DNA of 64,000 nt. Source: Olivibacter jilunii (GTDB lineage: Bacteria > Bacteroidota > Bacteroidia > Sphingobacteriales > Sphingobacteriaceae). This document shows positions 3,001-48,518 of the stretch, piece by piece. A program made the translations under genes and the position numbers. Below the pieces are notes generated by a model. The model did no database searches, was not told where the DNA came from, and saw nothing but the letters and a program-made list of their open reading frames with translations. Within the stretch, counting starts at the first letter, position 1. Each line of letters begins with the position of its first letter. The DNA is taken from contig NZ_LR027860.1 of the NCBI RefSeq assembly GCF_900607235.1, positions 30,477 to 94,476 of the forward strand. The letters run 5' to 3'.

Positions 3001-5572
3001 TTACGCTTGGTTGTATGGTATTGACGAAAATTCCTGCTGTACTCGGTACATTATTCAACATAGCGGAAGCCTCATTGCCAGCAGCGTCCTGCATAACACT
3101 TGCATTGCCGATAATTCCGGCCAAGGTGATCCCATCTAAATCTAAGTCTCCGCTTTGCACGGCGTAGCTAAACGCAAGCGTGCTAGTTCCTGAACCTGCA
3201 ACATAGGCCGCCTGAACAAGTGCTTCTCCAATAGTTAGGTTCAGGTAAGGGTTGCCACTAACGGTAACAGGCTCATTGAAATTCACCGTAAAGTTTAGTG
3301 AACTTCCCATTCTATAATATCCATTATTTGGTACAATAACCAAGGTTGAAACGGGAGTAACTCCATCAACGACAATATCATGTTGACCGGCAAGGGAGTT
3401 TGGACCACCAGTATTTGGCAATGTGAGATCCGCATCAACTAAAGCCCCGTTTCTTATCACCGCACCATTGAGTCTCAATGCGGTGGTTGATAGGTAATCC
3501 AGGTCATGACTGAGATCACCTGCTTGCACCGTGTAATTAAATGTTATGGCATCGGTACCCGATCCGGAAACATATTCGGCATCCCTGTTCACGACACCTG
3601 TATTTAATGTCAGCGTGGGGTTTCCCCCTGCCGCTTGAACGACGACAATTTGATTAAAAACAACTACGATACTTATCTCATCTCCTAATTTATACAAACC
3701 GTTTGAGGCAGTTGTATTTACCATATTTATTCGTGGGCTTCCAGCAGTTACTGCTATTCTAAGCGTTGCGGTGTCACAAAGTGAAGGCGAGCCATTATCA
3801 CATACTTGATAGATTACACTATCTTGACCGAAAAAGTCTGAATTTGGCGTGTAGGTAAAACTGCCGTCTGCATTCAGCACGACTGTGCCATTCACAGGCG
3901 CCGTCACCAGTGAGGCAGTCAACGCATTCCCGTCGGGATCGTTATCGTTCGTCAAAACGTTACCCGTTGCAGGTTCATTTTCAGTTACAATAATTTCATC
4001 ATCAACTGCAACCGGAGCGTCATTTGTTGAATTTACGGTGAACTTGACAGTCGCTGTATCGCATAAGGACGGGCTACCATTATCGCATACCTGATAGTTC
4101 AGGCTGTCTAAGCCGACAAAATTAGTGTTTGGTGTGTACGTGAAACTGCCGTTAGCATTCAATACCACCGTTCCATTAACCGGCGCCGTCACCAGTGAGA
4201 CAGTCAGCACATTCCCTTCAGGGTCTGTATCATTCGTCAAAACATTCCCTATCGCTGCTACGTTTTTCGCTGTACTGACAGCATCGTCTACAGCCATCGG
4301 AGCATCGTTCACCGGCGTAATATCTATATTGATAGTACCAACGACTACATTATTTGCACCGCCTGAACCGGTGTTACCGTTATCATTGATGGAAACTTCT
4401 ACCAGAGCCGCATTGTCGCCTGACAGGTTATGATCAGGTCGGAAATAAATATTACTAGGCACATTGATGTAATTATTAAGATCTATCAGATTTCCCGTCA
4501 ATGTTAACTTTCCAGTCAAATGGCCCGTTATGGAGATTCCAGTTCCTGCTGCAATATCAAATATTCCGCCGGTGGCGTCCAACGTTAAGGAGACTTGTCC
4601 CACACCCGCATCAACATCCATTATTGTCGCCGACGAAATATCCAATGCATCTTCGGTAGCGTCTTCTCGCACGGTAATGTCGGCAGGTAGTCCCGCAATT
4701 ACCGGTGCATCGTTTACCGCTTCAATTTGGAAGTGTGCCCATGCTGTATCACATCGAGAAGGTGTACCATTATCGCAAACCTGATATCGTAAACTATCCA
4801 AACCATTAAAATTAGCACTTGGTGTATAAGTAAAGCTACCATCCGCATTGAGTACGATCGTGCCATTTACGGGCGCCGTCACCAAAGAGGCGGTCAGGGC
4901 GTTCTCTTCCGGATCACTATCATTCGTCAAGACATTCCCAGTGGTCGGCGTATCTTCCCTTACCGATACAGCATCATCCATGGCGTTGGGAGCCCAGTTA
5001 GTCACCACTTCAATTTCATCCAACATAACACCTATGTTGAAACCAACTATTTCAAGCTCATCCATATTCGCCAAGAATGGATAGTCGCTTGAACTTATGG
5101 TAATTTTATGGATGGGTGTAGTGGGTTGATAGTAAGTCCGGATGGTATCAATAAGAACACCATCTCTTTTTACATAAATTTCAATCATCTGGGTTTCATT
5201 TTGGGTAGGCCAAATATTAAATTGCCTTATACCAAAATTATCTCCAGAAGTACTTTTTAAAGTGGCAGAATGAAGCGTAGCACCAGCCAACGCGTCATAA
5301 CGTAAAACATTGGTACTTAGACTAGTTCCAATCAACACCCTGATTTGACTACCATTCCCATTTCCGGTTGCAATGGCTGAAAAACCATTACCAACCTCCC
5401 AAGTGGCTGGTGCTGTATTTGTGCTAATGGCGTGAACCTCTCCTGCATTAAAGCCCTCCCAGTCATAAACACCGGAATTGAGTACTTGGGCATGTACAAT
5501 AGGACTACTGAATAACAGTCCGCAAAACGTTATTAGGTAGTTGAAAAGTTTTGTAGGGTAAAAGTATTTCAT
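1..5572 (-). CDS. giant secreted repeat protein with cadherin-like and MBG-type domains, partial (C-terminus outside window)
   Basis: One minus-strand frame is open from an ATG at 5572 to the left edge (about 1857 codons, no stop), so the C-terminus is missing. I checked the frame at about 4978, 3799, 2980 and 58. Residues 1-29 form a Sec signal peptide ending in HAQ. An N-terminal globular domain follows (to about 195). Next come cadherin-like/Big_9-type modules with the motif TGNVLTNDxDP...GSFTYTP...YQVCDNG at about 197, 420 and 510, then Ig-like segments with FSEAVTGFTLEDI near 865. From about residue 950 there is a tandem array of 71-residue units containing GSFVYDGTAKSLAISGTLP, the pattern of MBG/YDG-type domains. 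In Bacteroidota such proteins are usually large surface or gliding-type adhesins, often with a type IX secretion C-terminal domain. That domain would lie outside the window, so it is inference. It is the last gene of a three-gene operon, 21 bp after the binding-protein gene. Confidence 0.9.
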   Translation of the reverse strand, partial: MKYFYPTKLFNYLITFCGLLFSSPIVHAQVLNSGVYDWEGFNAGEVHAISTNTAPATWEVGNGFSAIATGNGNGSQIRVLIGTSLSTNVLRYDALAGATLHSATLKSTSGDNFGIRQFNIWPTQNETQMIEIYVKRDGVLIDTIRTYYQPTTPIHKITISSSDYPFLANMDELEIVGFNIGVMLDEIEVVTNWAPNAMDDAVSVREDTPTTGNVLTNDSDPEENALTASLVTAPVNGTIVLNADGSFTYTPSANFNGLDSLRYQVCDNGTPSRCDTAWAHFQIEAVNDAPVIAGLPADITVREDATEDALDISSATIMDVDAGVGQVSLTLDATGGIFDIAAGTGISITGHLTGKLTLTGNLIDLNNYINVPSNIYFRPDHNLSGDNAALVEVSINDNGNTGSGGANNVVVGTINIDITPVNDAPMAVDDAVSTAKNVAAIGNVLTNDTDPEGNVLTVSLVTAPVNGTVVLNANGSFTYTPNTNFVGLDSLNYQVCDNGSPSLCDTATVKFTVNSTNDAPVAVDDEIIVTENEPATGNVLTNDNDPDGNALTASLVTAPVNGTVVLNADGSFTYTPNSDFFGQDSVIYQVCDNGSPSLCDTATLRIAVTAGSPRINMVNTTASNGLYKLGDEISIVVVFNQIVVVQAAGGNPTLTLNTGVVNRDAEYVSGSGTDAITFNYTVQAGDLSHDLDYLSTTALRLNGAVIRNGALVDADLTLPNTGGPNSLAGQHDIVVDGVTPVSTLVIVPNNGYYRMGSSLNFTVNFNEPVTVSGNPYLNLTIGEALVQAAYVAGSGTSTLAFSYAVQSGDLDLDGITLAGIIGNASVMQDAAGNEASAMLNNVPSTAGIFVNTIQPSVTLSTEASSPVSSPFTVIATFSEAVTGFTLEDIIGSNATLSNLQTNDNISYSFLVTPAVGGIVQIYIPADMAVNVGSNGNLASNTLSLQYATIITGITLDDGSFVYDGTAKSLAIAGTLPAGTSVSYENNSRTDVGTQEVTATISGDNYETLILKANLTITKAAITGISFQDGSFVYDGTAKSLAISGTLPVGTSVSYENNSRTDVGTQEVTATISGDNYETLVLKANLAISKATITGITLDDGAFVYDGTAKSLAISGTLPVGTSVSYENNSRTDVGTQEVSATISGDNYETLVMKARLTITKANITGVTLDDESFVYDGTAKSLAISGTLPVGTTVSYGNNGRTDVGTQEVTATINGANYTDLVLTANLTITKASIDDVSDITFVDGSFVYDGTVKSLAISGTLPVGTSVSYEHNSRTDVGTQEVTATINGDNYETLVLKANLTITKANITGVTLDDGSFVYDGTAKSLAIAGTLPAGTSVSYENNSRTDVGTQEVSATISGDNYETLVLKANLTITKANITDVTLYDESFVYDGTAKSLAIAGTLPAGTSVSYEHNNRTDVGTQEVTATINGDNYETLVLKANLTISKATITGITLEDASFAYDGKAKSLAIAGTLPAGTTVSYGNNGRTDVGTQEVIATINGANYTDLVLTANLTITKAAITGISFQDGSFVYDSTAKSLAISGTLPVGTSVSYENNNRTDVGTQEVSATISGDNYETLVLKANLTITKAAITGTSFQDGSFVYDGTAKSLAIAGTLPAGTSVSYENNSRTDVGTQEVTATISGDNYETLVLKANLAISKATITGVTLEDGAFVYDGTAKSLAISGTLPAGTTVSYGNNGRTDVGTQEVIATINGANYTDLVLTANLTITKAAITGISFQDGSFVYDSTAKSLAISGTLPVGTSVSYENNNRTDVGTQEVSATISGDNYETLVLKANLTITKAAITGTSFQDGSFVYDGTAKSLAISGTLPVGTSVSYENNNRTDVGTQEVSATISG
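31..2730 (-). repeat. tandem array of thirteen 213-bp (71-codon) MBG-type units
   Basis: The anchor tacctacatc (or a close variant) recurs at 31, 244, 457, 670, 883, 1096, 1309, 1522, 1735, 1957, 2170, 2383 and 2596. The spacing is exactly 213 bp except for one 222-bp step (1735 to 1957), which carries a 9-bp in-frame insertion. All steps are multiples of three, so the reading frame is kept. The units are inside the coding sequence of the giant secreted protein and encode near-identical beta-sandwich-like domains. The array continues beyond the left edge. Confidence 0.93.
99..1141. repeat. higher-order duplication: 404 bp exact copies at 99-502 and 738-1141
   Basis: Bases 99-502 and 738-1141 are identical over about 404 bp. 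The offset is 639 bp, exactly three 213-bp units. Elsewhere in the array neighbouring units differ at many positions. This indicates a recent three-unit expansion or gene conversion within the MBG array. Confidence 0.85.
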
Positions 5573-5593: not shown

Positions 5594-6751
5594 CTAGACG
5601 CATAAGTAAGGGTTCTGCCACCCGGAACTATTTTGATAGGCCGCTTGCAGCATTTCAGGGTGCTCCCAACTGATACCTGGATCCTGGTCAATTACTTTAT
5701 TTTCTACTAGGCCTGTTTTACAATTGATTTGTGAGAGCCGGACATATACCGGGTGACTGGACTGATAAGGCGTCGTTTTAAGGTTGATTTCCCCTCGTGG
5801 ACCGAGGCAGGTGATCGTTGCCAACGCGCTAGCCAATGAATCGCGTGTGATCTTCTTATCTTCATGTCCACGAATCGCTTTTGAAAGACATAAGCCTACT
5901 TCGTAACCAAGCATGCTATACACCATCGGTTTCTCGTCATAGTTACTCTCATAAGCCTGTATAAAATCCTGATTAGCGCCTGTTTCTAATGTGTAGGTCC
6001 AGGTTATAGCGCTGGTTAGATTTGTCACGAATAGATCGCTTGTTTCCAAGCACTCATCCGTCATAAACGGAGCCACACTTAATGCGGTGCGAGAGGATAT
6101 CTTACTTTCCTGATAATAGCGGAGAAACTGCTCTCCTTCTTTTCCCGATAACATGGCGTGGGTGTGGTTTGGCATCAACATTTGTAATTGATTGATGAGA
6201 AGCAGGGTGTTTGGCATGGAAGTCATTCCATTTATAAAATTAAGCTTGACGTGGCTAGCTCCAGCCGCATGTAAGCCATAACGATAACATTCGTGCATAT
6301 TATACCCTGCCTCATAATACGATAGGCTTACACATGGATCTGCGCCGTATTCCCGTTGCGCCCATTTCCCCATCACCCACTCGCTTTTCCAAAGATCGAG
6401 ACTCGTATAAAAGAGATAATCTGACCGGAATTGATACGTAGGAACAAATCCACCTAAATTAGCTATCGCGACGGGTATACGGTATTTATTGATGATTTCT
6501 AAGCAGTTTTGAGTAACCTTGGTGCCTATCACACCAATGATCATATCGACTTGATCGAATAAAGCCAGTTTATTTAGTGCATTTTCGACAAAGGACTGCC
6601 CGCCGGTTTGAATAAACTCCTCAATGATTTCGATACGGCAGTTCGGTGTCCTTTGCGCCAACGCAAGCATAGCACCTTGCTTGAAATCATTGCGAAGATT
6701 TTTGAATACCCCTGAATAGGGTATTAAGAATCCTATTTTTAACTTTTGCAT
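5594..6751 (-). CDS. ABC-type substrate-binding protein (Peripla_BP_6-like), no signal peptide
   Basis: 385 residues resembling the branched-chain amino acid type (Leu/Ile/Val-binding fold) of periplasmic binding proteins. The N-terminus starts straight into the first beta strand (KIGFLIPYSGVF), followed by FKQGAMLAL and VDMIIGVIGTKV, typical of the first lobe. The C-terminal part has MLGYEVGLCLSKAI and a final segment on substrate-like features (GPRGEINL). It lacks the signal peptide or lipobox that transported-ligand receptors carry, and no permease or ATPase genes are adjacent, so a classical uptake role is doubtful. It lies 20 bp downstream of the tail-collar gene and 21 bp upstream of the giant secreted protein, so it is probably co-transcribed with both. 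Ligand unknown. Confidence 0.8.
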   Translation of the reverse strand: MQKLKIGFLIPYSGVFKNLRNDFKQGAMLALAQRTPNCRIEIIEEFIQTGGQSFVENALNKLALFDQVDMIIGVIGTKVTQNCLEIINKYRIPVAIANLGGFVPTYQFRSDYLFYTSLDLWKSEWVMGKWAQREYGADPCVSLSYYEAGYNMHECYRYGLHAAGASHVKLNFINGMTSMPNTLLLINQLQMLMPNHTHAMLSGKEGEQFLRYYQESKISSRTALSVAPFMTDECLETSDLFVTNLTSAITWTYTLETGANQDFIQAYESNYDEKPMVYSMLGYEVGLCLSKAIRGHEDKKITRDSLASALATITCLGPRGEINLKTTPYQSSHPVYVRLSQINCKTGLVENKVIDQDPGISWEHPEMLQAAYQNSSGWQNPYLCV

Positions 6752-7510: not shown

Positions 7511-7642
7511 CGCATGTGTGGAGATTAAGGGTTGTGCGCTGTGGCTAAGAGGAGGAGCTAGCGTAGCCTTGGATATACTTGTTATTTAGTGTCGGAGCTG
7601 ATACAAGGCATAGTTTATTAAACAAAGCTTCTTACACTTGAA

Positions 7643-8263
7643 CTATTTAAATTTTCGGCTGATCAATGCATGTCTACTATTGACCTCTAGCTTTTGATAG
7701 ATATTTTTAATATGATATTTAACGGTCTCTACAGCAATATCCAAACGCAGTGCGACTTCCTTATTAGTTAGTCCTTCCTCAATAGCACTTACGATTTGCT
7801 CTTCTCTCGGTGTAAGTTTTTCTTTTGGATCAGGCGTCACCCTGGGGTTGAAATACTCCACCACCAGTCGTGCAATACCTGGCGACATCGGTGCTCCCCC
7901 ATCGCAAAGTGAAATAACAGACTCTTTGATTTTTTGTAAAGGCGTTTGCTTTAAGAGGTAACCGGAAGCGCCATTGCACAAGGCTTGAAAAACCCTTTTT
8001 GCGTCATCATAAACAGTCAGCATAATTACCTGACATTTTGGTGCTCTCTTTTTTATGCGGGAAATCCCTTTAATTCCGGATTCTCCAGGCAGCCCGATAT
8101 CTGACAAAACCACATCGAGATAAGTATTGTCTGTCCACTGACTCATAAAGTCTTCTACCGAGCCCGCCGCTAAAAGACAAGAAAAACCTTGCTGTTCTTT
8201 GAAAAAATTTAACAGGGCTGTACGAATATGCTCGTCATCCTCAATTATCCCTAAACGTATCAT
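7643..8263 (-). CDS. NarL/LuxR-family response regulator
   Basis: 206 residues. The receiver domain (1-120) has the acidic pair EDD at 8-10, phospho-acceptor Asp55 in VVLSDIGLPG, and Lys in YLLKQTP. The C-terminal LuxR-type helix-turn-helix (about 148-206) contains LTPREEQIVSAIEEGLTNKE and VKYHIKNIYQKLEVNSR. It lies 69 bp downstream of the propeller kinase gene on the same strand, so the two form a two-component system. Its position just upstream of the tail-collar/adhesin operon makes that operon a plausible target; this is inference from order only. Confidence 0.93.
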   Translation of the reverse strand: MIRLGIIEDDEHIRTALLNFFKEQQGFSCLLAAGSVEDFMSQWTDNTYLDVVLSDIGLPGESGIKGISRIKKRAPKCQVIMLTVYDDAKRVFQALCNGASGYLLKQTPLQKIKESVISLCDGGAPMSPGIARLVVEYFNPRVTPDPKEKLTPREEQIVSAIEEGLTNKEVALRLDIAVETVKYHIKNIYQKLEVNSRHALISRKFK

Positions 8264-8332: not shown

Positions 8333-11320
8333 CTACATAAGTATTATATGCACCTGAAAATATTGATTCTCTTCAACAATAGACAACTGTGCATTCATTT
8401 TAGCAGCGCGCTCCTTCATATTTTGGAGTCCGCGTCCACCTTGGTGATTTACAAATAATTCCTTAGGATTTGAACAGGTATTTTTAATCGACAAGTGTAT
8501 AGTATTGTCGATAACCAGCTCGATGATTGCTCCTGAACCATCGCCATACTTGATCACGTTGGTCACAGCCTCTTTAAAAATAAGAAAAAGGTTCTGCCTT
8601 ACAATTTGAGACAAGCCGTTTGAGGCATAAGCTCCCCGAATCTCAAACTTATACTGAAAATCTACCTCCTCCTGAAGTTTATACAGGTAGTCTTTCATAC
8701 GGATAACCAGGTCTTTTAGTGTATCAAAACGCGAATCGATCGACCAAACCATGTCGCTCATGGTAGATAAGGCTTGCCTACTAGTATCTGCGATTTGTTG
8801 CAATTGCTTATTTTCTCCACTCCACCCGTTTATTTTGCTGTTCAGCGAATCGGCTTGGTAATAAATGCGTGTTAAAGAACTTCCCACCTCATCATGAAGA
8901 TCGCTGGCGATGCTAATTCGTAAACGACGTTCTTTGATTTGTATATATTCACGATATTTAAAGATTGCCCAAATAATGATCGCGAAAAACAATACGAGCA
9001 GGCATTTAAACCAAATTGTTTGATAAAAGGTGGGATTCACTTGAAGTGGCACGATTAGGCTAGCGTTAGTCCACCGCCCATCCGGCAGACGAGAAGCAAG
9101 GTGCAGCTGATAACTGCCGGGCGGCGTTTCAACGAAGGTAATTTCCTGCCGACGCCCCAAAGGCAGCCAATCCAAGTGTCCATCCAATCGATAAAAAAAC
9201 TGTAGCTCTTTGGCCAGCTCACTCACCCCGCCAAAGCCAATCGTAAAATAGCGCGTCCCAGCTTCTATTATAAGCCTTTTATCTTGTTTATACGGGAAGG
9301 TGTAATGCCGTTCCAATCCCTGGCCTGCTCGCTCGGTAGTAAAGCTGGTAATATTTAGGGGAGTGGTTTTCGTTAATCTTCTTACTTGCGGCACACGAGG
9401 CGCCTCCGCATTAAAATAAAGCAAACCATTGATGGTTCCCAAGTAAAAGGTATTGCCCTGCTGAAAAGCAGCCGCCTGATTAAATTCATTTGCTGGCAAT
9501 CGATCCAGTCGAGAGTAATTAGCAATCTGCTTTGTCTGTTTGTCAATCATACTTAAACCATTATGGGTGGCTACCGCGACATGGTCTGCCTTGGTTAATA
9601 TACTATACACAATATCATCAGCCAAGCCATCTTCATTGGTGATTTTCTGCCGTACCGCTCCATTCCCGTCTAATATCCAAACGCCTTCTCCATGTGTTCC
9701 TATCCAAAACGTATCATCTACCGGCGTAATACAATACACTGCGTTTCCCAAGGCATTTGTTTGCAAGCTGTTAGTTTGGCAATCCCAGATAAATAGCCCT
9801 TCGGGCGTACCGATCCATAATTTTTTTCCAACGGGTGTTACATGTAATATCTTTAATCGTGCAAGTTTAGGGTGTTTCACTACCCGGTATGTTTTTGAAT
9901 AAGGATTAACCATATATAAGCCTGCATAAGTGCCTACCCATACAGAATCATGCGAAACACGCGTCAACGTTGTCATGGCTTCAACTGGCAGTTTTTCGCT
10001 TTTTGCCGCCAAACTAAGCCTAATAGATGAAAGTCGTTTTTTTTTTCGATCGAACCAGAGCAAGCCACTTCCTTCCGTTCCTAATAATAAGGTGTCTTTA
10101 CTCCATGGAAGTATCCGATAAACAAACTGCCCACCGAGTGTTTCCTTTTCTCCGGTCCGCTCGTTTATGGCAATAAATCGATCTTTGTACGATCCGACAT
10201 AGAGCGTGCCGTCACTGTGCTTATAGATGCTTCGTATACTATTGATTGACGTACCATTGCTAAGGAGCGTATGAAATCGATGATTAGTGGGCAATAACTC
10301 TAAGACATGATTGTTAAGCGACATCAACAAGCTATTACCTAAATTTTTAAACCATACGATATGATCATCTTTTAGGTTGTCGGGGTAGGTCATTTCTTGC
10401 TTGCTTACATGGTTGGTCGGAAAGTTATATGTAAACAGCTGTTCTTTACCGATACTTGCTTTATTCGTGAATATCAAGATGTGATCATTATTGAAAGGTG
10501 CCATATATACGGTACCGTCCTTACCAACCTGATTCCTTTCCAATGCCGGAATTTGGTCAAAAGTTCCGTTTTGAGTATCAAAAAGATACAAACCACGATC
10601 TTTAATGTTTAACAAGCATTTTCCCGAGGGATGAAAGTGCACTTGTTCAATCTCTGTATTATTCAATTCAGGTAAGCCAAAGTATGTCGGAGGTGATAAA
10701 TAACCCTCCCGGATTCGGAGACGGATCATTTTCCCTGCTTTCGTGGATACCCAAAGTTCTCCGGCATAAGGTTCTGAGATGGAAACGATAGAAGGCTTGT
10801 TGAAATGGTTTGGATAATCCCGATTGATATCAAGCAGAAGTTTCAGGCTATCACCGTTGACCTGATAGAGTCTACCATCAAACGACCCTGCATATATATT
10901 GCCGTTGCGCCCTTGCCCAATACACTCTATATCCGGTTTATGAACATATTGGTCTAATTCCGGGTTTTTTACAAAATTCATTTCCCAACTTCGCAAATCG
11001 AAGCGTACGAGGCCATTTTCAGTTCCGATCCAAAGGTTGTTTTGCCTGTCGGGAAAAAGGGTTTTAATTCTACTGTTCGGAATAGCGGGTTTACTTTTAT
11101 TATTCAGGAAGATAGTTTCGTTTCCGTCGTATCGACATAATCCACCGCTAGTAGCCATCCACAGAAGCCCCGCACTGTCTCTTATAACATCCGTAATAAC
11201 TTGGCTCTGCAAATTTTCGGGAAACTTGGCATCTCGAAAAATAAATCCCTCTTCTTGGGAGTACACGTACAACATACGTGTAAGCAAAACAATAAGCAAG
11301 AAAGGTTTTCTAATATACAT
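8333..11320 (-). CDS. two-component sensor kinase with periplasmic beta-propeller (Reg_prop/Y_Y_Y, HisKA_3)
   Basis: 995 residues. A signal peptide (about 1-21) is followed by two seven-bladed-propeller-type regions with repeated two-component propeller motifs (VIRDSAGLLWMATSGGLCRYDG, LFPDRQNNLWIGTENGLVRFD). A Y_Y_Y-like beta domain follows (about 670-750), then one membrane helix near 765-785, then a HisKA_3 dimerisation domain with phospho-acceptor His at about 809 (DLHDEVGSSL). The HATPase domain has an N box (FKEAVTNVIKYG) and G box (GGRGLQNMKERA). Unlike Bacteroides hybrid systems it has no fused receiver and HTH; the partner regulator is the next gene. Such sensors usually detect polysaccharide fragments or other periplasmic cues. 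The GH43 gene diverges from it, so glycan sensing is plausible but unproven. Confidence 0.93.
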   Translation of the reverse strand: MYIRKPFLLIVLLTRMLYVYSQEEGFIFRDAKFPENLQSQVITDVIRDSAGLLWMATSGGLCRYDGNETIFLNNKSKPAIPNSRIKTLFPDRQNNLWIGTENGLVRFDLRSWEMNFVKNPELDQYVHKPDIECIGQGRNGNIYAGSFDGRLYQVNGDSLKLLLDINRDYPNHFNKPSIVSISEPYAGELWVSTKAGKMIRLRIREGYLSPPTYFGLPELNNTEIEQVHFHPSGKCLLNIKDRGLYLFDTQNGTFDQIPALERNQVGKDGTVYMAPFNNDHILIFTNKASIGKEQLFTYNFPTNHVSKQEMTYPDNLKDDHIVWFKNLGNSLLMSLNNHVLELLPTNHRFHTLLSNGTSINSIRSIYKHSDGTLYVGSYKDRFIAINERTGEKETLGGQFVYRILPWSKDTLLLGTEGSGLLWFDRKKKRLSSIRLSLAAKSEKLPVEAMTTLTRVSHDSVWVGTYAGLYMVNPYSKTYRVVKHPKLARLKILHVTPVGKKLWIGTPEGLFIWDCQTNSLQTNALGNAVYCITPVDDTFWIGTHGEGVWILDGNGAVRQKITNEDGLADDIVYSILTKADHVAVATHNGLSMIDKQTKQIANYSRLDRLPANEFNQAAAFQQGNTFYLGTINGLLYFNAEAPRVPQVRRLTKTTPLNITSFTTERAGQGLERHYTFPYKQDKRLIIEAGTRYFTIGFGGVSELAKELQFFYRLDGHLDWLPLGRRQEITFVETPPGSYQLHLASRLPDGRWTNASLIVPLQVNPTFYQTIWFKCLLVLFFAIIIWAIFKYREYIQIKERRLRISIASDLHDEVGSSLTRIYYQADSLNSKINGWSGENKQLQQIADTSRQALSTMSDMVWSIDSRFDTLKDLVIRMKDYLYKLQEEVDFQYKFEIRGAYASNGLSQIVRQNLFLIFKEAVTNVIKYGDGSGAIIELVIDNTIHLSIKNTCSNPKELFVNHQGGRGLQNMKERAAKMNAQLSIVEENQYFQVHIILM

Positions 11321-11522
11321 GAATAGGTAGAATGGAACACATCCATCTGATCTGGTGCGAAACTTTAATTATAAATTAAGCGAAATATTGTCCATCTTTT
11401 TTATTCATTCTGTTCATTTTTTTTACACATAAAAATTGGGTAAAAAGTGTTCTCCAAAGTCTTTCTCCAAACGAATCGATAGAAGAACAGTTTTTTTATT
11501 TTCTTTTATACTTTCCTGCGTT

Positions 11523-11530
11523 TATATTTG
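11523..11530 (+). promoter_or_regulatory. candidate -7 box (TATATTTG) of the first GH43 gene
   Basis: TATATTTG matches the Bacteroidota -7 consensus TAnnTTTG. It lies 20 bp before the ATG at 11551, leaving room for a start site near 11537. The -33 element is not clear; only T-rich sequence lies at the expected distance. The region 11321-11550 is divergent between the kinase and GH43 genes. Confidence 0.5.
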
Positions 11531-11550
11531 TCGGCATCGAATGACCAACA

Positions 11551-12684
11551 ATGAAACGAATTATAAGCATTTTCACTTTCTTTTCACTAACATTATCCTT
11601 TAATAACCAGCTGTTTGCTCAATCGCAAAACACCTATCAAAACCCGTTGCCGGTTGCATTTGGTGACCCTTACGTACTGCACGTATCGGGCGACAAATAT
11701 TATATGTACGGCACGGGTGGAGTTGCAAAAAATGGATTTGCTGCTTATTCTTCGACCGACCTTGTGAATTGGAAAGATGAAGGCCAAGTATTTTATGCCG
11801 GTAACCCAAATGGTTGGAGCGATTCTACCGCCGCTTGGAACGGAGCCTACTGGGCACCGGAAGTATATGCGCATAACGGCAAGTTCTACCTATTTTACTC
11901 CGCTCAATGGAGCGATAACCCTGGCAAGGAGGTTGAAAATTTTCGCATTGGAGTAGCTGTGGCGGATAAGCCTACGGGGCCATTTGTTGACTTAACCGAT
12001 AAACCAATTTTTGATCCTGGATACCCTATTATCGATGCGAATGTACTTTTTGATGACAGCGGTAAGATTTATCTTTATTATTCCCGCTGCTGTTATAAGC
12101 ATCCCGTGGAAAGCGAAGTAGCTACCTGGGCTAAGAAAAAGGGATGGTTTGATACAATAGAGGAAAGTTGGGTGTATGGTGTTGAGTTGAAACCTGATTT
12201 CAGCGGCGTTATAGGCGAGCCCGTCTTATTATTAAGACCTCCTGTAGAAATGAGCGATAAACAAGCGGAGTGGGAAAGTCGTTCGGTTACGTCAAAGGAA
12301 GTTAATCGCCGGTGGACAGAGGGCTCCGCTATTTTTAAGAAGGGAGACACTTATTATATGATGTACTCGGCCAATTATTTTGGGGGTAAGAATTATGCCG
12401 TAGGATACGCGACTTCCAAAAGTCCGCTCGGCCCATTTACCAAAGCGGCTAATAACCCTGTATTGCAGAAGAACAGCGAACGTGGTGGTGTGGTAACAGG
12501 AACCGGTCATAATAGTGTGACCTACTCGCCAGACGGAAAGGAAATGTTCTGCGTGTATCACGCACGGACCTTATCAACGGGTGAAGAACGTGTTGTTTTT
12601 ATTGATAGAATGAAGATAACAGAAGACGGGAAATTGATAGTAGAGGGACCGACTACGACACCTCAACTAGTTCCAAGCAGATAA
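11551..12684 (+). CDS. glycoside hydrolase family 43 protein
   Basis: 377 residues with a Sec signal peptide (cleavage near FAQS, residue 24-25). It has the five-bladed propeller signature of GH43. The putative catalytic base Asp is in FGDPYV (about 39), the pKa-modulating Asp in IIDANVLFDD (about 167), and the general acid Glu in RRWTEGSAIF (about 250). WNGAYWAPEVYAHNGKFYLFYSA is the typical second-blade motif. GH43 enzymes act on arabinans, xylans or related side chains, here probably in the periplasm or on the surface. It diverges from the propeller kinase gene and is followed by a hairpin terminator. The exact substrate cannot be told from the sequence. Confidence 0.92.
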   Translation: MKRIISIFTFFSLTLSFNNQLFAQSQNTYQNPLPVAFGDPYVLHVSGDKYYMYGTGGVAKNGFAAYSSTDLVNWKDEGQVFYAGNPNGWSDSTAAWNGAYWAPEVYAHNGKFYLFYSAQWSDNPGKEVENFRIGVAVADKPTGPFVDLTDKPIFDPGYPIIDANVLFDDSGKIYLYYSRCCYKHPVESEVATWAKKKGWFDTIEESWVYGVELKPDFSGVIGEPVLLLRPPVEMSDKQAEWESRSVTSKEVNRRWTEGSAIFKKGDTYYMMYSANYFGGKNYAVGYATSKSPLGPFTKAANNPVLQKNSERGGVVTGTGHNSVTYSPDGKEMFCVYHARTLSTGEERVVFIDRMKITEDGKLIVEGPTTTPQLVPSR

Positions 12685-42212: not shown

Positions 42213-43054
42213 CGTAACCCTATCTATAGGTGTATACGAAATTGCATGGTTTGCCTTGCAATTAACAGTTAACTTTACGAACAGTGCTATAGCATCTATC
42301 AATTCGTTTTCTTGGTCTACTTTTCGCATGCTGAGCCATGCGAGCTTATACTTCGATTTAGTTAATTTGTCTTAGGTTTGGCCTCATATCACGTCGAATG
42401 GTATCCAGTCTACAGACTGACTTTCTCAAACGGCTACCAGACGTTGCTGATGTAATGTTGTTTCTCTTCGGAAAGTTTGCCGTATTCACTACGGGTAGAC
42501 ATAGTTTGAAGCGAGAGCATAACACTTTCTTAGCCAATTTTCAATAAACAGCATAGTACTGGAATACCTTCGATCATGTTCCAAATTGACAATAATATAT
42601 TGTTCAATATGAAATATCCTTGAGCAAATGTAAGTATTATAATCACTCTGAACGAGCCTCCACCAGATGCAGATCACTTTCATTAAATTATTGCTACACT
42701 TTTCTGATTTTGTTGATAAAATCATTTATTACAACAGATAATCAATAACTTACAAAAAATACCTCGGTTATATCCTAAAAGAACGGGTGACAATTGCGCA
42801 CATCAAGCACTAAAGAAGCCGAATTATCTATTCTACACTAAATTGAATTTGTGGTTGACTGATGATTTATTAAATACCTAATATAAGTCGTCACGAGCAA
42901 CAGATTTCTTCATACCAACTTGGTAGCAAAAATTCTTGGCAAAACGATGTTGAGCGTATATGCAAGTTGGTATAAGAAGATAGGCGGTTGATTAAATAAA
43001 CATGCCTATCAAATTCATTCCCCTCAAATTAGCCTAGGATAAATTATAAACAAC
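42213..43054. other. long non-coding region ahead of the RiPP-like locus
   Basis: 842 bp between the TetR gene and the 51-codon peptide gene, with no convincing gene. It holds a notable inverted repeat at 42912-42973 about 80 bp before the peptide ATG. No exact TAnnTTTG box was found near the peptide gene. Confidence 0.55.
42912..42973. promoter_or_regulatory. 11-bp perfect inverted repeat upstream of the peptide gene
   Basis: ATACCAACTTG (42912-42922) and its exact complement CAAGTTGGTAT (42963-42973) are separated by 40 bp. CTTC/GAAG flanks nearly extend it. The 51-bp centre-to-centre distance is about five helical turns, which would suit two half-sites for a looping or cooperative LytTR-type regulator; it could also be a long hairpin. 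Assignment is inference. Confidence 0.5.
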
Positions 43055-43210
43055 ATGGAAAAGTTTAACAAAAGTCTTTTAGAAAGTTATTTAAGAATCG
43101 AAGCAGAGTGTATCTGCACTATAGACGCACCGCGCGAAAGTAACCAGCATCTTCGAGATGGTGACGAAACAGTGAGCAGCATGACCTTTACCACATCGAA
43201 TTTCATTTAA
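43055..43210 (+). CDS. putative RiPP precursor peptide (51 residues, Ser/Thr-rich C-terminus)
   Basis: 51 codons from ATG 43055 to TAA 43208-43210, too short for ordinary gene calls. The N-terminal part (MEKFNKSLLESYLRIE) is amphipathic and has FNKSLLE, loosely like the FNLD-type recognition motif of class I lanthipeptide leaders. Two Cys sit at 19 and 21 (ECIC). The C-terminal 13 residues, TVSSMTFTTSNFI, have seven Ser/Thr and no Cys. It directly precedes a receiver gene (26 bp) and the LanB dehydratase, the usual position of a precursor. If the C-terminus is the core, dehydration would give dehydroamino acids without a local Cys for ring closure. It has no GG or other clear protease site. 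Not recognised as a known family; the precursor role is inference from size, composition and context. Confidence 0.6.
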   Translation: MEKFNKSLLESYLRIEAECICTIDAPRESNQHLRDGDETVSSMTFTTSNFI

Positions 43211-43236
43211 TACTCACCTTGCTAAAATAAAGGAAT

Positions 43237-43623
43237 ATGCGATGCTTGATATGCGCTATCGTGGAGGATGAGCCGCTCGCTGTACAAATGCTCAAGGGCT
43301 ATATCAGTAAACGGTCCGATTTAACGTTGGTAGCTACGATTGATAATGTGTACGATTTTCATGTGATTATAAAAAGAATTACGCCGGATATCATCTTCCT
43401 TGATTTCAAAACACCTGGTTTTGATGGCGATGTTGACAAAATACTGGATCAAATCTCACCTAATTCAATTGTTATCAACACATCTGCTTCACCCCTATCC
43501 CACTTCAGAAATAAAGAAGAAATAGAAAACAATAATAAGGTTTATGAATTATTGAAGCCCTTTTCGCTTGAAAAATTCAATGAATGCATTGACTTTTTGT
43601 TAGGAATAGGACACTTCCAGTAG
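43237..43623 (+). CDS. stand-alone receiver-domain protein in the RiPP-like locus
   Basis: 128 residues: a CheY-like receiver of the type usually fused to LytTR domains, but with no DNA-binding part. Conserved sites: VEDEP, phospho-acceptor Asp in IIFLDFKTPGFDG, NTSAS as the Ser/Thr site, and LLKPFSLEKFNECI. It lies between the precursor-like gene and the dehydratase gene (12-bp gap), so it is in the same transcript. It may compete with or titrate the phosphate of the LytTR system, or act by protein contacts. Alternative: a truncated LytTR regulator. Confidence 0.85.
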   Translation: MRCLICAIVEDEPLAVQMLKGYISKRSDLTLVATIDNVYDFHVIIKRITPDIIFLDFKTPGFDGDVDKILDQISPNSIVINTSASPLSHFRNKEEIENNNKVYELLKPFSLEKFNECIDFLLGIGHFQ

Positions 43624-43635
43624 ACTCTGCATGCG

Positions 43636-46600
43636 ATGTTAAGTAATATTGAACATTTAGGTTTCTTTTTATTAAGATTGCCAAGTTTACCATTGCAGGA
43701 AATTCAAAGGATCAATGCCGATAATACGGCCAGCCTAGCCGAAAACCTACATGATTTGCTCAGTCGTAATCCGGAAGTATTGGAAGCTATTTCATTTGCC
43801 AGCAAAGATCTCTATCATACCTATCTTAGCTGGTTAGAGAATGGATATATGCCAGATCTAAAGCTACTGGTTACTCTGTATAAATATGTCTCTCGCATGG
43901 CTTCTCGCGCTACTCCCTTTGGTAGTTTTGCCGGTGTCTGCATGGGGCATATCAATGATAATACGAGTACATTAACGCTTACAGGGCACGCAACTATCTA
44001 TGCTCGTGTGAGTCTAGATCACTTGATGCGTCAACTTCATCAGCTACAACAAAGTCAGGATTGGCTAAACGACATTGTATTCTACACGAATAATAGTATT
44101 TACGCAGTAGGCGGTTATTTCAGGTATATACGTTTTGAAACCGTAAAAGACAAAAGGACTTTTTTTCAGGTTAAACTTAAGATAAACCCTTTATTGAAAT
44201 TGCTTTATGATTATGCCAGGGAAGGGAGAACTTTCAGTGAACTCATAACCTTTCTTATGGACTTTGATATTGAGAGAAACGAGATAACAGCCTATCTATC
44301 TAAGCTCTTAGATAATCAATTTCTAATATCGGAATTAGAGCCCACGATTTTGGAAGACCAAGATATTCACAAGCTTACTCATAAGTTAAAGGGAACGGAT
44401 GCCGCAGTTGTAGAGATGCGAGACCTATTAACTTTGTCATCTTGCTCCAACAGAATAGCTACCTTAGATGAATTCCCATTCAACGTTGTGCTACCACAGG
44501 TTGATAAAAAATTCATCGCAAAGGAGGTCAACCTGAAACAATCTGTAATACAGCTAATAGCTAGAGAATTGTGTGAGCTACATCCGTTGTTTACATCATT
44601 AATACCACAAGAACTGCAGGTTTTTATTCAAAAATTTAAAAGGCGATACGAGATGATGGAGGTACCACTGCTGGAAGTACTTGATGGGGATTTGGGTATC
44701 GGCTATGGAAACCTCGATAATCAATATAAAAGCGAACATCCTTTAATTAACAACCTGGATATAAGCGAGGGTAAGAAACAGCTCACATCGACGCTTGAAG
44801 AACAAGTGATGACTAATGCGTTGTTTTCCGGTTCACGGCATATAGATCTGGAAACAATTTATCCTCTTTTGGAAAAGAGACAGGAGAACAGTGCTGTTGC
44901 GCCGACCTGCTACGCCATTGGCAATCTTTTGACAAAAAAAGTAGAGGATTTGGATAACGGCAATTTTCAATTTCACCTAGCCGCATGTAGTGGATCGTCA
45001 GCAGTAAATTTGATGTCGCGCTTTGCTTATATGGACGAGGCGCTGAAGAATAACCTTCGAAGCTGCGCTATTTATGAAGAACAATGCTTTGATAATGTGA
45101 TTCTGGCAGATATCAAACATATACCGGAGAATAAAATAGGTAACATCTTGCGGCGGCCGAAGCTGTACAGTTATGAAATACCCGTATTGGGACTTACTTG
45201 TACAAAAAATAAAAAACAAATCCCTCTTTCGGACCTTACAGTAACTGTGAGAAACAACCAGGTTATTTTGTTCTCCAAAAAACTAGACAAAAGGGTTATT
45301 CCAAGGTTGAGTTGCGCTCACAATTTTAGACAAGGAATCTCCGTTTATCGATTTTTATGCGATTTGCAATATCAAGACACCCCTTTTTCCATCTATTGGA
45401 ACTGGGACAAATATAAAAGGGCTCCGTTCTTACCTAGAATCAGCTATAAACATCTTATCTTATCTCGCGCGCGCTGGTATATAAAGCAAAGGCGCCAGTT
45501 CGATATAAATTGGTTTAGGCAGCTGCAAAAGGATCTACGATTACCGAACGAAATATTGATCGCTGAAGGCGACAATGAATTATACATTGACATCAGAACC
45601 AGTTGGGGAATGCAGTTATTGAAAGACAAACTGGCGTTGGGGGATGTAATATTATATGAGTCTTTAGTGCACCATAGCACTATTATTAAGGATACAAACG
45701 GTAATGCTTTTGTTAACGAAATTATCATTCCTTTCAAATCGATTGTAAAAAAGTGCGCGTTCATCGAAATGACCCCGTTGAAGAACAAGGAAGTGAAACG
45801 GAGTTTCTTGCCTGGAAGCGAATGGATTTATATAAAGCTTTATTGTCCACAGAAAACTGCGGATGAAATATTGGCTGAAGATATCATGAACTTAGTTAGA
45901 CAGCTTAAAGAATGGCAACTCATCGATAAGTGTTTCTTTACGCGCTATCATGACCCCGAATTCCATATCCGTTTGCGCCTACACGCACCCAATAACAGTA
46001 AAAAGGCTTATAATAAACTACGAGAAATTTTACGCTTCACTATGGAACATTTGGCCTCTCAAAACAAAATTTGGACAGTTCAATACGATACATATGTGAG
46101 AGAACTTGAACGTTATGGCGTTGATAATATCGAGCATTGCGAATCGATATTCTCAATTGATTCAGCGGTTGTTTTGGATTTTTTGGCAACGCTGCCCAAG
46201 GACGACGTAAATGTGCGATGGCTTTTTGGATTAAAGGCCGTTGATCAACTATTTAACGCTTTCGGAATAAATCTATCAGAACGTTTCGAATTAACTGAAG
46301 AATGGAGTTTAGCGCTGGCCAGAGAATTTAAAATTGATAAGGTAAAGCAAAAAAAGATGAATCTAAATTACCGAAATCATGCCGCTTCCATTGATGCTCT
46401 GCTTTGGCATCAAGAGCCTTCCCGGATTTTCGCGAAAGATCTTCTTGAAAAGCGATTCCAAGGTATTACCCATATATTACAAAAATGGAAGCCAAATAAG
46501 ATTGAGGTAAATAAGCTAATTGGAAGCATCTGCCATATGTTTTTTAACCGACTTTTCTTTTCGGATCAGCGAGCCAACGAAATGGTCCTATATAGCTTTT

Positions 46601-46692
46601 TGGCTAAAAATTACCGATCAAGGATAGCTCGATCGAAGAATGAAAGCGCTACCACCTTTGCAATTACGACAGGAGAACTATGTCCAAGTTAG
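43636..46692 (+). CDS. LanB-type lantibiotic dehydratase (class I lanthipeptide/thiopeptide-type)
   Basis: 1018 residues, full length for LanB. The N-terminal glutamylation domain starts with FFLLRLPSLPLQEI and contains YVSRMASRATPFGSFAGVCMG, a hallmark of the family. It continues to about residue 690. The C-terminal elimination (SpaB/thiopeptide-type) domain starts at about 728: WIYIKLYCPQKTADEIL, CFFTRYHDPEFHIRLRLHAP, WTVQYDTYVRELERYG. Established activity of the family: tRNA-Glu-dependent glutamylation of Ser/Thr and elimination to Dha/Dhb. It is not split into two proteins. No LanC, LanM, protease or transporter gene is adjacent. Its stop overlaps the convergent LytTR gene by 4 bp. Target peptide is likely the 51-residue product upstream. 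Confidence 0.93.
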   Translation: MLSNIEHLGFFLLRLPSLPLQEIQRINADNTASLAENLHDLLSRNPEVLEAISFASKDLYHTYLSWLENGYMPDLKLLVTLYKYVSRMASRATPFGSFAGVCMGHINDNTSTLTLTGHATIYARVSLDHLMRQLHQLQQSQDWLNDIVFYTNNSIYAVGGYFRYIRFETVKDKRTFFQVKLKINPLLKLLYDYAREGRTFSELITFLMDFDIERNEITAYLSKLLDNQFLISELEPTILEDQDIHKLTHKLKGTDAAVVEMRDLLTLSSCSNRIATLDEFPFNVVLPQVDKKFIAKEVNLKQSVIQLIARELCELHPLFTSLIPQELQVFIQKFKRRYEMMEVPLLEVLDGDLGIGYGNLDNQYKSEHPLINNLDISEGKKQLTSTLEEQVMTNALFSGSRHIDLETIYPLLEKRQENSAVAPTCYAIGNLLTKKVEDLDNGNFQFHLAACSGSSAVNLMSRFAYMDEALKNNLRSCAIYEEQCFDNVILADIKHIPENKIGNILRRPKLYSYEIPVLGLTCTKNKKQIPLSDLTVTVRNNQVILFSKKLDKRVIPRLSCAHNFRQGISVYRFLCDLQYQDTPFSIYWNWDKYKRAPFLPRISYKHLILSRARWYIKQRRQFDINWFRQLQKDLRLPNEILIAEGDNELYIDIRTSWGMQLLKDKLALGDVILYESLVHHSTIIKDTNGNAFVNEIIIPFKSIVKKCAFIEMTPLKNKEVKRSFLPGSEWIYIKLYCPQKTADEILAEDIMNLVRQLKEWQLIDKCFFTRYHDPEFHIRLRLHAPNNSKKAYNKLREILRFTMEHLASQNKIWTVQYDTYVRELERYGVDNIEHCESIFSIDSAVVLDFLATLPKDDVNVRWLFGLKAVDQLFNAFGINLSERFELTEEWSLALAREFKIDKVKQKKMNLNYRNHAASIDALLWHQEPSRIFAKDLLEKRFQGITHILQKWKPNKIEVNKLIGSICHMFFNRLFFSDQRANEMVLYSFLAKNYRSRIARSKNESATTFAITTGELCPS

Positions 46693-47387
46693 TGATTCAC
46701 TAATTTTTTATAAACCTCATCCCGATAGGTAACACCTATTGGGATATCTTTTATACTCCCTCTCATAATGATCTTGTCCGGATCGACTGCTCGCACAAAG
46801 TTTTTATTGATAATATAGGACTTATGGGTCCTCAGAAACACATCCTGTGGTAGGTCGTTGGTGATTTTTTTTAATGAGTAAATGATCAGGAACTCCCGTT
46901 CAGTTGTGGATATTCTGATATATTCCCGGTCGCCCTCTACGTATTGTATTTCGTGATAGGGAACCAGATAGTTCCTATAATTGTCTTTAATAGCAAACGT
47001 ACCAGTCTGCACTTTTTCTACTACATCATTTCGAGTAAGATGGCTCTGTGCTCGCGATAAGGCCTTGAATAACCTTTCAAATGAATAAGGCTTCAGTATA
47101 TAATCGAATACTTCCAATTCAAAGCTTTCCAATGCATAGTCTGCTCGTCCTGTAATAAATATGAAAAGCGGTCTTTTAGATAGCGATTTCAGGAAATCAA
47201 CCCCATTAATACCAGGCATATTAATGTCTGAAATGACCACATCGATGTTGTTTTTGCTTAAAAAAACGATTGCATCCATCGCCGTTTCGAAACTAGCTTC
47301 CAAACTTACAAAGGGGATCTGAGTGATATGTTCACTTATGCCTTTTCTCGCCAACGGTTCATCTTCAATTATTATACATCGTAGCAT
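46689..47387 (-). CDS. LytTR-family response regulator of the RiPP-like locus
   Basis: 232 residues. Receiver domain with IIEDEP, phospho-acceptor Asp in VVISDINMPGING, TGRADYAL and YILKPYSFERL. The LytTR DNA-binding domain follows: NYLVPYHEIQYVEGDREYIRIST, DLPQDVFLRTHKSYIINK, VTYRDEVYKKLV. It is encoded opposite to the dehydratase and overlaps its last codon. It forms a two-component pair with the kinase 3 bp upstream. It is the prime candidate regulator of the peptide/dehydratase transcript. Confidence 0.94.
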   Translation of the reverse strand: MLRCIIIEDEPLARKGISEHITQIPFVSLEASFETAMDAIVFLSKNNIDVVISDINMPGINGVDFLKSLSKRPLFIFITGRADYALESFELEVFDYILKPYSFERLFKALSRAQSHLTRNDVVEKVQTGTFAIKDNYRNYLVPYHEIQYVEGDREYIRISTTEREFLIIYSLKKITNDLPQDVFLRTHKSYIINKNFVRAVDPDKIIMRGSIKDIPIGVTYRDEVYKKLVNH

Positions 47388-47390
47388 ATT

Positions 47391-48518
47391 TCAATTAGAT
47401 TTCAGATTAATTTTCAAATGTACTGAATATACGTTTTTTTGTACCCCATAGGACAAATAATACTTGTCCTTATAATGTAAGTCCAATCTTCGGAGAATAT
47501 TGGACATACCCACCCCTCCTACGGATTGACTATCATTTGGTTTAGCGATGTGTTGGGTAGATTCTACTTCGTTCTCTACCTGCAAAAATATCCAATCGTC
47601 GTTTACGTCAATGTTAATGTAAACGAAATTATTGTTAGGGCTTTTATCCGGTCCGTGCTTGAAAGCATTTTCCACAAATGGTATAAGCATCAATGGACTG
47701 ATTTTATAAGGCTCTTTTATATCCGTAATATACGCTTCGATCTGCACGCGTTCACCGTATCTAATATGCATAAGCGCTATAAAATCTTTAAGGAATTCGA
47801 GTTCCTTTCGTAAGGGAATAAAATGATTTTGGGATTCGTATAGCGTATAGCGCATTAACGTCGAAAGACGCAGAACCATATCTCGGCCTTTATCATAATC
47901 CGTATCGAGTAGTTGATAGATATTGTTTAGGGTATTAAATAAAAAGTGTGGGTTTACCTGCGACTTGAGAAAATTAAGCTCAAGCTCGAGGTTGTCGCGC
48001 TCTAGCCTTGTTTTAGTAAGTACTTGTTCTAACATGATTTTCACGAATTTCGGCCCAACGGGGAGTGAAATAAGAAAGATAAAATCAAGCACAAAAATGT
48101 AAACATTCTTCACTATACTTAAAGGTCCATCTGTCAGTACAAGCTCAAGATACTTACCGAATCTCGGTCCATAGTTTTTGAATGTAGCCTGAAAGATAAA
48201 ACATGCAGCGTAAGTTGTTAAGGCCCAAATTACATACAAGACTGCTATCCATAACAGCACAAAAGGGATACCACGTGGATTGGAGAAAACAGACACAACT
48301 TTTCGAGAAGATAGTGAATAAAAAGCAATCATCACCACTAATAACTCTTTTATTACAAATATCCATACGTGCTCGGCGTTACCGATCAATCTATAGTAGT
48401 TAAAATAATAAACTACAGCGATTAATAGCCAAAAGAGACTATGATAAGCTAAACGTAAACCCAGCCGCGAAAATACTGAGTCACTTGACGTTGGAATACG
48501 TAGCTCACTAACATTCAT
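47391..48518 (-). CDS. LytS-like sensor histidine kinase of the RiPP-like locus
   Basis: 375 residues with five or so membrane helices in the first 190 residues, then the His_kinase domain: SQVNPHFLFNTLNNIYQLLD (phospho-acceptor His) and HATPase with PFVENAFKHGPDKS and VGGVGMSNILRRLDLHY. Its 3' end is 3 bp from the LytTR start. The multi-helix sensor resembles peptide- or membrane-stress sensing kinases, for example quorum-sensing-type systems. The ligand is unknown; sensing of the mature peptide would be a natural idea. Confidence 0.93.
   Translation of the reverse strand: MNVSELRIPTSSDSVFSRLGLRLAYHSLFWLLIAVVYYFNYYRLIGNAEHVWIFVIKELLVVMIAFYSLSSRKVVSVFSNPRGIPFVLLWIAVLYVIWALTTYAACFIFQATFKNYGPRFGKYLELVLTDGPLSIVKNVYIFVLDFIFLISLPVGPKFVKIMLEQVLTKTRLERDNLELELNFLKSQVNPHFLFNTLNNIYQLLDTDYDKGRDMVLRLSTLMRYTLYESQNHFIPLRKELEFLKDFIALMHIRYGERVQIEAYITDIKEPYKISPLMLIPFVENAFKHGPDKSPNNNFVYINIDVNDDWIFLQVENEVESTQHIAKPNDSQSVGGVGMSNILRRLDLHYKDKYYLSYGVQKNVYSVHLKINLKSN

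Follow-up and report, generated by a model that had tools for sequence, protein, structure and literature searches.

This study focused on the question of what a lanthipeptide dehydratase (LanB) might produce in a locus that has no LanC cyclase. LanB is usually treated as one half of a LanB/LanC pair. In a stretch of 64,000 nucleotides from Olivibacter jilunii (contig NZ_LR027860.1, positions 30,477 to 94,476; hereafter the window, whose own numbering is used), a full-length LanB gene is preceded by a gene for a 51-residue peptide with a serine- and threonine-rich, cysteine-free C-terminus, and no LanC gene was recognised nearby. The genome (G000, 6.7 Mb; Bacteroidota, Sphingobacteriaceae) belongs to the same genus as G001 and G003. 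The locus is probably a compact, regulated module for a ribosomally synthesized and post-translationally modified peptide (RiPP), making a linear, LanC-independent peptide that contains dehydroalanine and dehydrobutyrine (Dha/Dhb) and no lanthionine rings. This reading is sequence-based, and draws on gene content, operon-like spacing, an operator-like repeat, conservation, and intact catalytic residues.

The peptide gene and its relatives

The peptide gene (43055..43210, plus strand) is supported by orthologues, by a family hidden Markov model (HMM), and by codon-level purifying selection. It was the sole one among the 126 ATG-initiated open reading frames (ORFs) of 40-120 amino acids in the window to have at least seven Ser/Thr in its last 13 residues. 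Those residues, TVSSMTFTTSNFI (43169..43207, plus strand), include seven Ser/Thr and no Cys, as had been described before, and form the putative modified core; the core is assigned from tail conservation, with an inferred leader-core boundary. The leader carries a class I-like LanB recognition motif and no GG. Pfam and NCBIfam gave no match to the peptide, and orthologues were found by tblastn in loci L015 and L016 (65% and 67% identity), where the downstream LanBs are 59% and 55% identical to that of the window. Invariant columns in the three Olivibacter peptides make up 14 of 15 in the tail and 13 of 37 before it (Fisher p 1.4e-4). Over the last 15 codons, the window gene differs from the Olivibacter sp. 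XZL3 copy by nine synonymous and no nonsynonymous changes, and from the Olivibacter domesticus (DSM 18733) copy by seven synonymous and one nonsynonymous. Judged from these differences, the tail codons are under purifying selection, and this together with the conservation rules out a chance ORF.

An HMM of the three Olivibacter peptides and a same-genus paralogue (L020) retrieved 11 further peptides above the inclusion threshold from the 10,633 small ORFs contained in the window and the LanB-centred loci L015-L064, all 11 lying directly 5' of a receiver gene and LanB. When 399 whole genomes of the family were scanned with a 15-row HMM, there were 18 matches, spread over 17 genomes. Fifteen of these were the training loci, all adjoining LanB, two lay near contig ends with the neighbour out of view (G031, G291), and one was a weak match (E 0.0035) within a 206-aa frame (G193). 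That weak match aside, the peptide family was not found away from LanB in the 399 genomes, and homologues beside related LanBs, on which the preliminary description had made its proposal depend, are present. A LanC-free locus with a Cys-free-core peptide beside LanB is likewise supported, its dehydration and linearity being what we infer from it.

The LanB dehydratase

The LanB gene (43636..46692, plus strand) encodes a full-length class I dehydratase of 1018 amino acids (PF04738 E 2.3e-117, PF14028 E 1.2e-61), in agreement with the earlier assignment. Its sequence matched MadB (9g04), MibB (5ehk), and NisB (4wd9, 6m7y). NisB residues R83/R87/T89, R784/R786, and H961, correspond to R87/R91/T93, R779/R781, and H967 of the window LanB, and E823 and R826 have the same numbering in both proteins (counted on the printed alignment); in NisB, these residues serve glutamylation or elimination. 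All of R87/R91/T93 and R779/R781/E823/R826/H967 are invariant in the 16 aligned LanBs, of which 15 came from module loci of the kind described below, and one from L025, whose fetched stretch also has LanC and a C39 gene. An AlphaFold model built with 16 sequences had a mean pLDDT of 79.5 and a pTM of 0.74. Foldseek matched it along its full length to MadB, NisB, and MibB (E 3.3e-45 or better, TM 0.56-0.62), with rmsd values of about 19-20 Å, so that domain placement is loose; TbtB and GodF were the next structural matches. With class I lanthipeptide clusters, then, the locus shares a LanB with glutamylation and elimination domains and their catalytic residues.

A five-gene module

The preliminary description had presented a minimal locus of LanB and peptide. 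This overlooked a receiver gene, a convergent LytTR regulator, a kinase, and a repeat with a 21-bp period, all of which belong to what is a five-gene module, and a bare two-gene locus was rejected. The lone receiver-domain protein (43237..43623, plus strand; 128 aa; PF00072 E 3.4e-7) is encoded in the same operon, 26 bp after the peptide gene and 12 bp before LanB. The LytTR response regulator (46689..47387, minus strand; PF00072 and PF04397) is convergent with LanB, the ends of the two genes overlapping by 4 bp, and is followed by the gene for a LytS-type membrane histidine kinase (47391..48518, minus strand; PF06580) with about four transmembrane segments in a simple hydropathy scan. A candidate LytTR-type operator (42966..42998, plus strand), proposed from pattern matches and upstream enrichment, consists of the direct repeat GTTGGTATAAGA - 9 bp - GTTGATTAAATA, with its first base 89 bp 5' of the peptide start codon. 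The flanking genes scanned with Pfam specify a hydrolase, a molybdopterin oxidoreductase, a NUDIX protein, a TetR regulator, a receiver, a cold-shock protein, and a sigma factor; none of those scanned is a RiPP or transport gene, and three had no match. PADLOC gave no match, and no relative was found in viral contigs.

A module set of 41 loci was picked for LanB, no LanC nearby, and a two-component system. In 19 of these (the convergent set, Sphingobacteriaceae type) the kinase and regulator are convergent on LanB, and in 22 (the collinear set) they run in the same direction as the peptide operon genes. By profile, all 41 loci have LanB, 40 have a kinase, 40 a LytTR regulator, and 35 a receiver-only gene, the missing kinase and regulator being those of L020, where the contig ends. 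Because the loci were picked by layout, the recurrence of these parts is partly selected. Selection does not account for the lack of further widely shared genes: other gene clusters each occur in at most 5 of the 41 loci. The same five genes are found again, in varying order, among relatives in Sphingobacteriaceae, Chitinophaga, and Spirosoma: besides the convergent arrangement of the first, the order is kinase-regulator-peptide-receiver-LanB in Chitinophaga, and regulator-kinase-peptide-receiver-LanB in most Spirosoma and Dyadobacter relatives, some of which have no recognised receiver.

A peptide was assigned in 39 of the 41 loci, with none found in L096 and L105. In the convergent set, four came from the original finding and tblastn, 11 from the HMM, and four by eye (two with sub-threshold HMM scores), and in the collinear set 20 were assigned by eye as a small same-strand ORF before the receiver or LanB. 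The gap between peptide and receiver is at most 89 bp in all 34 loci having both. An hhalign comparison paired the module leaders with those of 11 canonical Bacteroidota lanthipeptide precursors (probability 93, E 2.9e-7, 28 columns), and NCBIfam model NF038153 matched 7/39 module peptides at E <= 0.1 (best 0.0073; the window peptide not among them) and two canonical precursors at 6.8e-14 and 2.5e-11.

No exporter, leader protease, or immunity gene recurs in the modules, and a C39 transporter lies near 4/39 of them. A whole-genome search gave a Peptidase_C39 match in 17/17 module genomes, including two matches in the window genome, both on other contigs, so export in trans is possible.

The counts for the 39 peptides exclude several variant loci. 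One of them, a second LanB locus of the window genome (L017, G000:C1:918822-920822), has a kinase and LytTR regulator, no LanC nearby, and, on the minus strand, LanB (8817-11621) and a Cys-free small ORF (7553-7708); three more genomes of the genus have loci like it (L022, L023, L024). In a further variant (L041, L042, L050, L089, L094, of which L089 and L094 are from Pedobacter), the kinase, regulator, and receiver run away from LanB, and L041, L042, L050, and L094 have small ORFs with one Cys in the tail, yet no LanC nearby.

Absence of LanC and of core cysteines

Profiles of our own for LanC and the C39 transporter had no match between 37 and 53 kb of the window, which bears out the earlier statement that the locus has no LanC. 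A class I lanthipeptide is defined by LanC in the cluster or genome and by core Cys for (methyl)lanthionine rings; the locus has neither, and so falls outside the definition. The earlier description had allowed that cyclase and export genes might lie elsewhere. The window genome has a single LANC_like match, on another contig and part of a class III-type LanKC (RamC_N, Pkinase, and LANC_like). A LANC_like match is present somewhere in 7/17 module genomes and absent in 10/17, which weakens the idea of a cyclase elsewhere, and a cyclase acting in trans was largely rejected (one of these genomes, G031, is counted on the strength of a peptide close to the start of one contig and a LanB on a different one). 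YcaO (PF02624) had no match in the window genome, on which ground an azole-type RiPP was also rejected.

Cys is missing altogether from 23 of the 39 module peptides, and the GG dipeptide from 34 (the exceptions being L020, L032, L078, L084, and L091); 32 are Cys-free in the last 22 residues, including 19/19 of the convergent set. By contrast, a leader regular expression found 116 GG-type precursors in 39 loci, 111 of them with at least two Cys after the GG. The L078 module peptide is among the five that fall short of this; the other four have the appearance of chance ORFs or of unrelated double-glycine peptides. Across 118 LanBs, LanC was absent with a module peptide in 38 cases, and present with a Cys-rich GG precursor in 31; it was absent with a Cys-rich GG precursor in six, where LanC may lie past the fetched flank, and the precursor was unknown in 43. 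The combination of LanC with a module peptide was 0/118, by construction, as the module set was drawn from LanC-free loci. On a FastTree LanB tree, which carried a long-branch warning, the LanC state changes 11 times and the precursor type three times, leaving just four independent pairs, and the association between LanC and precursor type is thus not statistically secured.

Some related loci differ from the module in these features. In L027, L028, L030, L033, L034, L036, and L038, a lone receiver, LytTR regulator, and kinase stand beside LanC, a C39 transporter, and GG/Cys-rich precursors, and these loci link the module to canonical lanthipeptide clusters (L070, a named copy of L034, is from Pedobacter cryoconitis). 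The Mucilaginibacter polytrichastri locus L053 (15057-15272; named copy L115) has a Cys-rich GG precursor near LanB, and its LytTR/kinase genes have close by a small ORF that is Thr-rich, free of Cys, and carries that same leader motif. The class III-type LanKC lies at L018:6784-9483 (G000:C2), and two similar small ORFs, Thr-rich and with Cys, at L018 13393-14113 are possible class III precursors.

Candidate operator and regulation

The 220-bp stretches upstream of 32 non-redundant peptides were rich in direct repeats with a period of 21, the mean best score being 7.59 of 10 compared to 6.22 in dinucleotide shuffles (z 9.5; periods 10 to 44 scanned); the next-best periods were 42 and 13 (z 3.1 each). 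For 84 other genes in these loci, the upstream mean was 6.64, and 0/10,000 random sets reached the observed mean. LytTR sites are described as a pair of 9-11 nt repeats separated by 11-13 nt (PMC4847170). A matrix made from the sites upstream of the module peptides scored at least 15 in 24/32 peptide upstreams (a circular result for the peptides), 7/84 others, 0/13 convergent-set kinase upstreams, and 1/17 collinear-set two-component upstreams; in L015 it picked another place than the repeat shared with the window. In five genomes of the genus, a pattern from the three Olivibacter sites matched without mismatch at those three modules only, and its other three matches carry three mismatches, the reversed control likewise giving three matches. 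A pattern from five Chitinophaga sites matched exactly once in each of those five genomes (<=3 mismatches), and its control once in all. The visible target of the regulator is its own peptide operon, divergent sites being possible, and the LytTR regulator very likely activates this operon.

The 17 upstream stretches of collinear-set (Chitinophaga/Spirosoma type) kinase/regulator genes also had raised 21-bp periodicity (mean 7.65), without the peptide operator matrix, which hints at a second, different LytTR site.

Divergence of the peptide tail was compared with that of the kinase sensor. With kinase-domain distance as the control, the partial correlation in the convergent set was 0.35 for the tail (p 0.002) and -0.03 for the leader, and in Chitinophaga 0.63 (p 0.002) and 0.27 (p 0.026). 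With LanB distance as the control, the convergent set gave 0.33 (p 0.004) for the tail and 0.17 (p 0.046) for the leader. Over all 37 loci, the values under kinase control were 0.51 for the tail and 0.44 for the leader, and with end gaps set differently the tail reached 0.59 under kinase control and 0.63 under LanB control. This correlation, which still has shared ancestry in it, suggests sensing as a hint, not a proof. That the kinase senses the product or a related cue is conceivable, if somewhat doubtful. The lone receivers keep the phospho-acceptor Asp56 in 30/35 and Lys107 in 30/35; a role as phosphate sink or brake is possible though rather unlikely.

Proposed mechanism and alternative explanations

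In the mechanism proposed, the membrane kinase and LytTR regulator would switch on the operon via the direct repeat, yielding the 51-aa precursor, the lone receiver, and LanB. LanB would bind the leader helix through a motif of the L-x-L-x-K-E-I-I type, glutamylate Ser/Thr of the tail using glutamyl-tRNA, and eliminate glutamate to leave Dha/Dhb. Dehydration of the tail by LanB is likely. As there is no LanC, and usually no Cys, the product would have no rings, and we consider their absence reasonably likely. The product, a linear, dehydrobutyrine-rich peptide, would perhaps feed back on the kinase. A wider proposal, advanced tentatively, is that the modules are a RiPP class of their own across Bacteroidota, overlooked by mining that relies on LanC and Cys, in which LanB-only linear dehydrobutyrine peptides are produced under a dedicated kinase/LytTR/receiver circuit that senses its own product, as an autoinduced signal or effector.

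A number of observations weigh against the main reading. Seven of the 39 peptides, all of the collinear set, have one or two Cys in the last 22 residues, and Cys21 is invariant in the three Olivibacter peptides. The same-genus locus L019, with LanB, regulator, and kinase, has a LANC_like gene (Pfam E 7.3e-9) along with a Cys-free small ORF (features at 5953-6114, the small ORF, and 3848-4882, both minus strand), which is an exception to a strict pairing of LanC with Cys; a second LanC neighbour was recognised there by our own profile without a Pfam match. No receiver was recognised in 6/41 loci (L043, L099, L105, L106, L138, L141), and 5/35 receivers are without the Asp. The operator fit was poor in L020, L031, L039, L087, L099, and L142, and that just one operator site is visible speaks against a broad regulon. 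In the Spirosoma group (n 8) there was no tail-sensor correlation (-0.08 under kinase control, 0.00 under LanB control), and in Chitinophaga under LanB control the tail (0.29, p 0.058) did no better than the leader (0.30, p 0.016). Finally, no exporter or leader protease that could release the product recurs in the module.

A pheromone system like ComQXPA or Agr, in which a modified peptide is secreted and sensed by the kinase, and the LytTR regulator shifts many genes, is rather improbable. The module does match the set of roles in ComQXPA (modifying enzyme, pre-peptide, kinase, and regulator), which to our knowledge also has no exporter of its own, and the lack of recurrent transport or immunity genes and the tail-sensor covariation under kinase-domain control would suit it. 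However, one visible operator site per genome, at the module's own operon, reveals no wider regulon, for which reason broad quorum sensing was not adopted; the Olivibacter tails are strongly conserved rather than diversified, and the covariation fails in the Spirosoma group and weakens in Chitinophaga under LanB control. It is also unlikely, and more so, that the locus makes a class I lanthipeptide, with a cyclase from elsewhere or with a LanC-free ring formed via the leader Cys19/Cys21. Dehydrated residues react with thiols, several relatives have a leader Cys, and the LANC_like genes in 7/17 genomes could be enlisted. The sole LANC_like match of the window genome is, however, within the LanKC, and the Cys sits in the leader; the preliminary description had allowed that these Cys join the modified region, which cannot apply to the 23/39 relatives without any Cys and is left to the Olivibacter lineage, with its invariant Cys21.

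A slightly smaller chance attaches to the peptide staying inside the cell, with LanB and the receiver serving the two-component system internally, as a device for feedback or for sensing tRNA-Glu. We know of no precedent for such a device, but it would accommodate the lack of a recurrent exporter or protease, a receiver that shares the operon, and a regulator with one visible target. A strongly conserved, short Ser/Thr tail fits better with a product that is made, and the Peptidase_C39 matches in all module genomes leave room for export in trans. Least probable by far is a decaying lanthipeptide cluster that has lost LanC and its exporter. The interleaving of LanC-free and LanC-bearing LanBs on the tree (11 changes) would allow it, yet the LanC-free modules form sizeable clades in three groups, and it was largely rejected on this LanB-tree evidence; the catalytic residues, operator-like repeats, and Olivibacter peptide tail are, moreover, all conserved. 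The linear, LanC-independent Dha/Dhb peptide remains the preferred reading. If true, it adds a widespread Dha/Dhb peptide type in Bacteroidota and a small five-gene system in which LanB can be studied on its own, and the circuit may be an instance of peptide-based regulation in Gram-negative bacteria.

Comparison with known systems

The literature search found no description of a LanC-free, kinase-coupled LanB module, most subscription journals lying outside it. One large survey began with LANC_like proteins and dropped Cys-free ORFs (PMC7268733), so a LanB at work independently of LanC would have escaped it. In other papers, NisC served as the query and LanA candidates were sought with Cys (PMC3091789), no LanB was found in Bacteroidales (PMC10352776), and a Bacteroidota class I product bore (methyl)lanthionines (PMC9576775).

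The Bacteroidota class I lanthipeptides (pinensin type, and Pedobacter/Chitinophaga clusters) are like the module in their full-length, two-domain LanB and leader family (LxLxKETI...), many have LytTR/kinase genes nearby, and the L027 type shares the lone receiver. The module differs in having no LanC nearby, no C39 transporter nearby in 35/39, and a single precursor that is GG-less in 34/39 and has a Cys-free tail in 32/39.

Goadsporin and thiopeptide pathways carry out LanB-type dehydration without LanC, their LanBs (GodF, TbtB) being separate glutamylation enzymes that act on azole-containing peptides. Both are structural matches of the module LanB, in which, however, the two LanB domains are fused, and the window genome has no YcaO. 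The small LanBs of PEARL type (peptide aminoacyl-tRNA ligases) share the ancestry of the glutamylation domain and are without an elimination domain, whereas the window LanB has kept that domain (PF14028) and its residues. Autoinduced lantibiotics of the nisin type have a dedicated exporter and immunity genes, none of which recurs in the modules, and no C39 transporter lies near the window locus. In ComQXPA (PMC4008528), modifier, pre-peptide, kinase, and regulator are adjacent, as they are in the module, the relatives having been chosen for this layout. Agr shares the LytTR regulator. Compared to both, the module has LanB as its modifier, adds a lone receiver, and has its visible operator just at its own operon.

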